Below are positions 43,087-53,785 of a stretch of 56,114 nt of DNA, piece by piece. A model generated the notes under the pieces. The model was not told the origin of the DNA. It saw nothing but the letters and a program-made list of their open reading frames with translations, and searched no databases. Each line of letters starts with the position of its first letter. Position 1 is the first letter of the stretch. The stretch covers positions 1 through 56,114 of the forward strand of contig MGOY01000040.1 in assembly GCA_001797275.1 (NCBI GenBank). Direction: 5' to 3'. Made by a program: the position numbers and the translations under genes. The DNA is from Clostridiales bacterium GWF2_38_85 (GTDB lineage: Bacteria > Bacillota > Clostridia > Oscillospirales > CAG-382).

Positions 43087-43190
43087 GCGGAGGTGCAGTA
43101 GCTTGAAAACCAAAGGGGAAAACTATACCTTTGTGCGTACCTCCACCAAATTTTCACTATTTTATGTGCCTATAAAGGCGTGGAGGTTAT
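43087..43190 (+). promoter_or_regulatory. Structured yabP leader with competing anti-Shine-Dalgarno pairings (includes family 4 repeat)
   Basis: GGAGGT at 43089-43094 and the Shine-Dalgarno GTGGAGGT at 43180-43187 can both pair with ACCTCCAC at 43139-43146. The first pairing is extended by GCA/TGC and encloses a stem CAAAGG/CCTTTG (43111-43133); the second is an 8-bp stem that would hide the yabP ribosome site. The part from about 43128 to 43190 recurs inverted at 53625-53686, so it comes from a repeat. This fits a translational on/off switch, but no ligand is known. Confidence 0.45.
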
Positions 43191-43478
43191 ATGGCTAATC
43201 AACATAAACTCACAATGGAAAACAGATCAAGGCTTGTTATAACAGACGTCAGAGATGTATATAGCTTTGATGATCATATAATAAACCTGCATATCGGTGA
43301 AGAAAATGATCTGATGATTAGCGGCGATGGGTTAAGTATAACAAAGCTGTCGCTTGATAATCCCGAGGGCGGCGAGGTTGTTATTTGCGGAACTGTTGAA
43401 GCAGTAGTATATTCGGAAAGCGGTCGGAATTCGAAGAATGCATCAAAACCCGGGCGTTTACAGAAGCTATTTAAATAA
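43191..43478 (+). CDS. yabP: Sporulation protein YabP
   Basis: YabP is a small mother-cell protein needed for normal spore development, similar to YqfC. The 95 residues show the family pattern: KLTMENRSRLVITDVRDVYSFDD, then EENDLMISGDGLSITKLSL and a C-terminal valine-rich strand GGEVVICGTVEAVVYSE, ending in a basic tail. GGAGG four bases before ATG is part of a repeat-derived hairpin. yabQ starts three bases after the stop. This is one of the clearest signs that the organism forms spores. Confidence 0.92.
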   Translation: MANQHKLTMENRSRLVITDVRDVYSFDDHIINLHIGEENDLMISGDGLSITKLSLDNPEGGEVVICGTVEAVVYSESGRNSKNASKPGRLQKLFK

Positions 43479-53592: not shown

Positions 53593-53785
53593 TTGATACT
53601 AGTCTCTCATAAAACATAACGCTAACCTCCACGCCTTTGTAGACACAAACTTGAATGTAAATTTAGTGGAGGTACGCTCTAAGGCTTAATTAAGCTTTAT
53701 GTTTAAAAGCTAAAATTCTGTAAAAAACCCATTAAGCAAAGGTTTTTTCTTGAATTTTATCTATGTTTTTAATCGAGATAAGTAT
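53593..53785. repeat. Family 3-like element with nested family 4 hairpin
   Basis: The ends ATACTAGTCTCTCATAAAAC and GTTTTTAATCGAGATAAGTA are imperfect inverted repeats and resemble the copy at 8405-8459. Inside, at about 53625-53686, lies an inverted copy of the yabP leader repeat with ACCTCCAC (53632-53639) and GTGGAGGT (53665-53672 approximately). It fills the gap upstream of the SPFH gene; the gap 53434-53817 has no gene. Confidence 0.55.
53722..53750 (+). terminator. Terminator-like hairpin in the SPFH gene leader
   Basis: AAAAAACC pairs with GGTTTTTT around 11 bases, followed by CTTG. It could be a terminator of upstream transcription or an attenuator. Confidence 0.4.

Follow-up and report, generated by a model that had tools for sequence, protein, structure and literature searches.

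The window analysed here is a contig of 56,114 nucleotides from Clostridiales bacterium GWF2_38_85 (MGOY01000040.1; genome G000), and it carries a yabP gene whose ATG is abutted on its left by a short, structured sequence that recurs elsewhere in the genome (Table 1). A sequence-only reading of this leader had described a GGAGGT, a CAAAGG/CCTTTG pair and two complementary arms, ACCTCCAC and GTGGAGGT, ahead of yabP. It had proposed that one arm pairs either with the upstream GGAGGT or with the arm that contains the yabP Shine-Dalgarno (SD) site, forming mutually exclusive structures of the kind found in riboswitches and thermosensors, and that the hairpin had been co-opted from a dispersed element with an inverted copy near 53625. 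All of these sequence pieces, including those of the second stem in the upstream alternative, lie where they were reported, as does the yabP ATG, and the inverted copy is present on the minus strand.

Table 1. Features of the yabP leader and the second element copy in the window
Feature	Position	Strand	Remarks
Putative displaced host SD, GCGGAGGTGCAG	43087..43098	+	Core 43089-43093, GGAGGT 43089-43094; left of the element; based on sequence and family-wide SD enrichment
Repeat element, TAGCTTG ... GTGGAGGTTAT	43099..43190	+	Abuts the yabP ATG; model matches 43094-43193 and 43093-43193
Possible leader ORF of 31 codons, TTG start, LKTKGENYTFVRTSTKFSLFYVPIKAWRLYG	43103..43198	+	Stop overlaps the yabP start; predicted from sequence
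CAAAGG/CCTTTG hairpin	43111..43133	+	CAAAGG 43111-43116, CCTTTG 43128-43133; unique to the yabP copy among aligned copies
ACCTCCAC, 5' arm of the conserved stem	43139..43146	+	
GCCTATAAAGGC, inner hairpin stacked on the conserved stem	43168..43179	+	
GTGGAGGT, 3' arm of the conserved stem	43180..43187	+	Holds the current yabP SD (within 43182-43187)
yabP, host gene	43191..43478	+	YabP family, Pfam PF07873; ATG at 43191
Second element copy	53619..53717	-	ACCTCCAC 53666-53673, GTGGAGGT 53625-53632; only a 10-codon ORF after it

Taken as a single sequence, the pattern in the yabP leader is only modestly unusual. Base shuffling of the leader segment produced an 8-nt inverted repeat with a competing upstream 6-mer in 86 of 20,000 trials, and tiling the contig in 104-nt windows gave 34 such cases in 2,155. 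The leader folds with a z-score of -1.70, a stability matched or exceeded by 10 of 200 shuffles. The pattern rises above chance because a unit of about 100 nt recurs and because its stem covaries across the copies. BLAST of the leader against its own genome (2.83 Mb in 47 contigs) found it in eight places, including itself, and 24 matches were obtained there with each of two covariance models, R1 and R2, which bears out the derivation of the hairpin from a dispersed element.

The proposed switch, on the other hand, did not hold as a conserved feature of yabP. Model R2, applied to the yabP loci of 29 relatives and to three more loci (33 sources), matched only the window's own, so the conservation at orthologues that marks a riboswitch or RNA thermosensor was absent from this set. 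The upstream alternative pairs 43089-43094 with 43139-43144 and thereby uses the host SD, which lies outside the element. Across the 24 copies in G000 this pairing shows no co-selection (own pairing -6.02 kcal/mol vs -5.76 when permuted), and the yabP copy has the strongest of them (-15.7). We read the alternative as a by-product of the position of the element, because any purine-rich SD left outside faces the pyrimidine arm of the element. The part of the proposed structure that stands is the stem holding the yabP SD, which is conserved with covariation, while the upstream alternative is specific to the yabP copy; a conserved yabP switch was rejected on the strength of the element-free loci of these relatives together with this lack of co-selection. 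In the predicted folds the alternative stem is the minimum-energy structure (-31.8, against -28.8 with the SD stem forced). Nevertheless, the yabP SD stays paired in the predicted ensemble, with an unpaired probability of at most 0.05, so the alternative does not free it; with the leader masked as if by a ribosome, the predicted probability is about 0.3.

The element is about 95 nt long and its copies occur in both orientations. Those in G000 align nearly gap-free across about 100 nt; they open with TTAGC[GAT]TGAAAAA, followed by some 24 nt of variable sequence, then GCGTAYCTCCAY, a spacer, the inner hairpin, RTGGAGRT and finally TTATTAT. Two subfamilies in G000 are distinguished by their stems, ACCTCCAC/GTGGAGGT and ATCTCCAT/ATGGAGAT. 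Several individual copies and variants depart from this plan. A G496 subfamily (L195, L197, L198, L199, L202, L203 and others) exceeds the other copies by 30 nt and has an additional hairpin, GGCAAGC...GCTTGCC, in place of part of the 5' arm of the stem. At L071 (G000:C14:38846-38945) an inverted copy lies at the 3' end of an apparent rpsT and abuts its stop codon, and at L074 (G000:C14:252130-252228) two right halves of the element occur in succession, which suggests that one copy inserted into another.

The distribution of the element is patchy and confined to a few distantly related bacterial genomes. In a family-level search of 63 genomes, three had matches (G000, G040 with two and G017 with one), and the single congener examined, G001, had none. 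An order-level search of 394 genomes, in which the best 10 candidates per genome were scored and absences carry little weight, found matches in four and added G200, with three weak ones (E 3.8e-4 to 0.0067). Eleven of 391 genomes responded to a class-level pattern search; the matches were genuine in G000 (five) and G496 (six), and each of the other nine had a single match to the string without the rest of the element. Model R3, run on 41 genomes, gave 55 matches in G496, 21 in G438 and none in the remaining 39. Within the 11 genomes of the genus of G438 there were 41 matches in G438, 49 in G471, one each in three genomes and none in six. All three single copies (L225, L228 and L229) run up to the ATG of a long ORF. 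The totals per carrier are 55 in G496, 49 in G471, 41 in G438, 24 in G000 and one to three in each of six more genomes. Membership in a known RNA family was rejected on the results from Rfam, in which the window had no match at gathering score and seven copy-bearing loci, searched at E up to 1, gave one weak V_AS7 match away from the element. Similarly, a phage or plasmid origin was rejected after blastn searches of phages and plasmids with two copies, one from G000 and one from G496, which gave no match, and two pattern searches of viral contigs, the first returning eight stretches without the left end of the element and the second none.

The position of the element relative to genes was scored in 90 copies: 24 in G000, two in G040, one in G017, three in G200, 51 of the 55 in G496 (the other four hits being truncated or partial) and nine in G438. 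Left ends were set by script, and by hand in 25 copies; the 49 hits in G471 stand outside all counts. Since the nine G438 rows are mostly single copies or the last units of arrays and are therefore biased towards genes, totals are also quoted without them. On its right, the element ends at the start codon of an ORF that is 75 aa or longer in 64 of the 90 copies, or in 56 of 81 without G438 (G000 15/24, G040 2/2, G017 1/1, G200 3/3, G496 35/51; G438 8/9), whereas 185 of 2,039 same-strand ATGs with little upstream open frame at the same loci (about 9%) satisfy the ORF criterion. The start codon falls at the identical model position in 61 of the 64 gene-side copies (53 of 56 without G438), although the models include the last bases, TTATTAT. 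By the same 75-aa criterion, 26 of the 90 copies lie away from an ORF start. One copy in G496 (L148/L142, G496:C65:5719-5819) lies within an ABC-transporter ATPase gene, 11 nt past its apparent start, and is one of the few that interrupt coding sequence.

The genes that follow the element differ from one another, with the exception of one paralogous pair. In G000, 14 of the 15 gene-side proteins match Pfam, all in different families: ferritin, class I E/Q tRNA synthetase, YabP, SpoIIIAB, SecA, thioredoxin, PMT_2, radical SAM, aldose epimerase, VTC, cation efflux, GNAT, zinc ribbon and CotH. Such a set is unlike the regulon of one metabolite. Furthermore, several of the Pfam matches begin at residues 1-8, so the N-termini look native.

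An SD core is present within 15 nt of the left end in 40 of the 56 gene-side copies (G438 excluded), compared with 2, 8, 5 and 7 of 56 in control windows further upstream; the other 16 have no SD core within reach. Left of the copies that do not precede a gene there is no enrichment (5 of 25, against 4, 4, 2 and 1 in the controls). The left SD therefore goes with the gene and not with the element, which places the element between the SD of a gene and its start codon. At the right end, a new SD is found in 14 of 15 gene-side copies in G000, 2 of 2 in G040, the single one in G017 and 8 of 8 in G438, and in none of those in G200 (0/3) or G496 (0/35).

Occupied and unoccupied sites can be compared at dtd (Pfam Tyr_Deacylase), which follows the same upstream gene, presumably one whose C-terminus resembles RelA, in 11 of 11 genomes of the genus of G438 and G471. 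In nine sister species the gap before dtd measures 14-72 nt; four of these gaps hold, as judged by eye, a GGAG-type SD, and five a stretch of GGGGG. The gap in G471 is 404 nt long and consists of GGCGGAGG and four tandem units of the element, followed by the dtd ATG; that in G438, of 394 nt, is filled by other repeats and not by the ~95-nt element. From sequence comparison, these sites appear to agree with an element placed between a pre-existing SD and the start codon, but the left SD in an array could also be the remnant of a unit. Tandem arrays of ~91-nt units occur in G438 as well, at L178:561-1421 (9.4 units) and L179:470-943 (4.7 units), the latter directly before a long ORF, and variation of their length between strains is possible. 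A different dispersed repeat is also found near gene starts in G438 and G471. It carries the motif TGCATTTTCGAGC together with a palindrome, for instance AAAACCGCAAGCGGTTTT, and occurs at L255 upstream of dtd (G438:C1 near 2857270), L221 and L249.

The SD stem and its inner hairpin change in a compensatory manner. In 25 copies, 94.5% of cells pair, vs 86.1 in shuffles, with 38 doubly changed cells vs 12.5 and eight pairs with a double change vs 3.4. In 20 copies drawn from four genomes, U-A, G-U, A-U, C-G and G-C all occur at the three middle stem pairs, and there are 32 doubly changed cells vs 10.5; the number of pairs with a double change in this set (5 vs 4.0, 119/500 shuffles) is not in excess, and neither test shows an excess of further pair types. 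Alignment A4 omits L084 and L088, whose 3' parts are interrupted, and alignment A5 comprises 20 chosen copies, the yabP copy not being among them. In G200 and G496 the stem is present without an SD sequence in it, from which it appears that the family keeps the stem and not SD sequestration.

These data also bear on whether the element is a true regulatory RNA acting at many genes, in which a 5' helix (CGUGAAAAAUA/UAUUUUUCAUG) and a GAUAC/GUAUC hairpin compete with the SD stem in a balance that responds to some signal. This would extend the switch proposed for yabP to the whole family. We consider it unlikely, even though the stem covaries, the 5' helix is conserved in sequence and could compete with it, and several second-subfamily copies in G000, such as L078, have the competing helix as their minimum-energy fold. 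Own pairings also beat permuted ones, at -7.59 vs -6.09 for the helix and -6.51 vs -5.38 for the hairpin, with 0 of 5000 permutations as good in either case; however, the permutations ignore relatedness, and the support they give the helix is confounded because the copies are related. Column tests of the helix gave covariation scores of 0.145 vs 0.123 (56/500) and, in a second test, 0.071 vs 0.062 (119/500), which is not clear covariation, and the helix was accordingly rejected as an established alternative state. In the yabP copy itself it is weak (-5.0, equal to the median for swapped partners). The stem without an SD in G200 and G496, the unrelated targets and the absence of the element from most relatives argue further against regulation of this kind.

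The element opens with a start-like codon, spaced from the old SD as a host start would be. A frame 0 of 20 or more open codons occurs in 38 of 51 copies in G496 (8 in frame +1 and 18 in frame +2), 3 of 3 in G200, 2 of 2 in G040, 9 of 24 in G000 (10 in frame +2) and 3 of 9 in G438, and the longer G496 variant, with its additional 30 nt, stays in frame. Relative to the gene start, the leader stop lies between -10 and +60 nt in 27/51 copies in G496, 3/3 in G200, 2/2 in G040, 7/24 in G000, 1/9 in G438 and 0/1 in G017; in the type II copies of G000 the leader frame stops 36-37 nt before the start codon. Coupling through an overlapping leader is plausible in G496, G200 and G040 and at yabP, where the predicted leader has 31 codons, but would not be general, because the frame is open in so few of the G000 and G438 copies. 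It might instead be supposed that the conserved unit is a small peptide (consensus near MKN...TxxRTSTNFSFKFVPxKAWRL) and that each repeat is a copy of a very small gene joined to the upstream side of another gene, as the open frame 0 in G496, G200 and G040 and the in-frame longer variant would allow. This we regard as highly improbable: near-identical copies within a genome are not independent, we estimate that 30 codons are open by chance in about a quarter of cases, and second-subfamily copies stop early. As the frame is not kept in G000 type II or G438, a small-peptide gene was rejected as the conserved unit.

In all, there are many copies of the element, mostly ending at start codons and there having an SD just to their left, with a compensatory stem and, in places, arrays of ~91-nt units. 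We think it probable that the feature in the yabP leader is one copy of a mobile, structured repeat of about 95 nt lying in the gap between SD and start codon; its spread is suggested by copy number and patchiness, although the analysis turned up no transposase or intermediate for it and no insertion at strain level. Copies would have arisen by insertion, or replacement, at translation starts, and the element would supply replacement initiation signals, in the form of its own SD in G000, G040, G017 and G438. At yabP, the old SD may now serve the 31-codon leader ORF and the SD of the element may serve yabP, although folded into the stem; a ribosome on the leader would melt this stem, so that yabP translation would be coupled to that of the leader. 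In G200 and G496, which have no new SD, termination-reinitiation at the overlapping leader stop would have to serve.

The ends of the element also bear on how it moves. Among 81 copies, terminal inverted repeats of the kind that define MITEs were not found (6.5/18 matches vs 7.5 for shuffled ends), and flanking direct repeats, with boundaries uncertain by a few bases, are barely above chance (mean 3.12 vs 2.97 nt, 10/200 permutations as high). A search for Y1_Tnp (PF01797) gave no match in G000 or G496, nor in G001, G017, G436 and G764; the domain is present in G438, G471, G040 and G200 and in the element-free G546 (13 matches), G608 and G788. A resident Y1 transposase was rejected as the mover on the grounds that the carriers G000 and G496 gave no match. 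The same results weigh against an ordinary selfish intergenic repeat, MITE- or REP-like and without site preference, of which selection purged the gene-hitting copies and left those beside starts. Such a repeat would be dispersed, patchy, structured and present in both orientations, as this one is, but the excess of coincidence with start codons over comparable ATGs and the SD enrichment left of gene-side copies only are at odds with it, and we judge it quite improbable. More tentatively, and with more doubt than confidence, we suggest that our preferred reading of a repeat in the SD-to-start gap could represent a class of bacterial mobile elements that recognise translation starts as such, perhaps in the mRNA (a guess to which the location of the element gave rise), and insert between SD and start codon. 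They would carry a replacement initiation region, consisting of a new SD or of a leader ORF whose end lies on the start codon, and would thereby keep the host gene translated.

Several known systems share features with this element. Translational riboswitches and attenuation leaders likewise have an SD in a stem, competing structures and a leader ORF before the gene; they are conserved at orthologous, related genes, whereas the ~95-nt element lacks such conservation at yabP and is found at genes unrelated to one another. The case warns against taking every SD-sequestering hairpin of a single genome for a riboswitch, since such hairpins can be repeats. The bcr elements of the Bacillus cereus group are mobile chromosomal repeats with conserved RNA folding, but are longer, and we know of none placed between an SD and a start codon; nor did the open-access literature that we searched contain a description of an element in this position. 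Small hairpin repeats moved without target duplication, as for REP elements and their IS200/IS605-like Y1 enzymes (RAYT) in the sections of PMC3733652 available to us, would resemble the element, although it has no GTAG/CGTC end tag and Y1_Tnp is missing from G000 and G496. The Rickettsia palindromic elements, as the available sections of PMC10969869 describe them, are also short, multicopy and ORF-bearing, and are tolerated by genes whose reading is preserved; they are in-frame insertions inside ORFs, however, and the ~95-nt element lies before the start codon (56/81), usually with its leader in a separate frame. The BOX, RUP and SPRITE repeats of Streptococcus pneumoniae are short interspersed structured sequences thought to be parasitic and mobile, of which BOX forms tandem units, can encode ORFs and has no functional theme among its neighbours (PMC3049150, in the parts accessible to us). 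The ~95-nt element is similarly short, structured and interspersed, with tandem units, a possible leader ORF and unrelated neighbours, but in the same parts of that source these repeats are over-represented between convergent genes, away from gene starts, unlike an element concentrated exactly at start codons (PMC3049150). Small mobile repeats are widespread among bacteria; as far as the accessible sections of these papers go, those known lie downstream of genes or inside coding sequences. A repeat that fills the few bases separating SD from start codon, and does so in front of scores of unrelated genes in distant lineages, would, if our reading is true, represent a novel form of coexistence of a selfish sequence with its host; it would rewire the translation of many genes at once, and would pose the question of which enzyme finds start codons.
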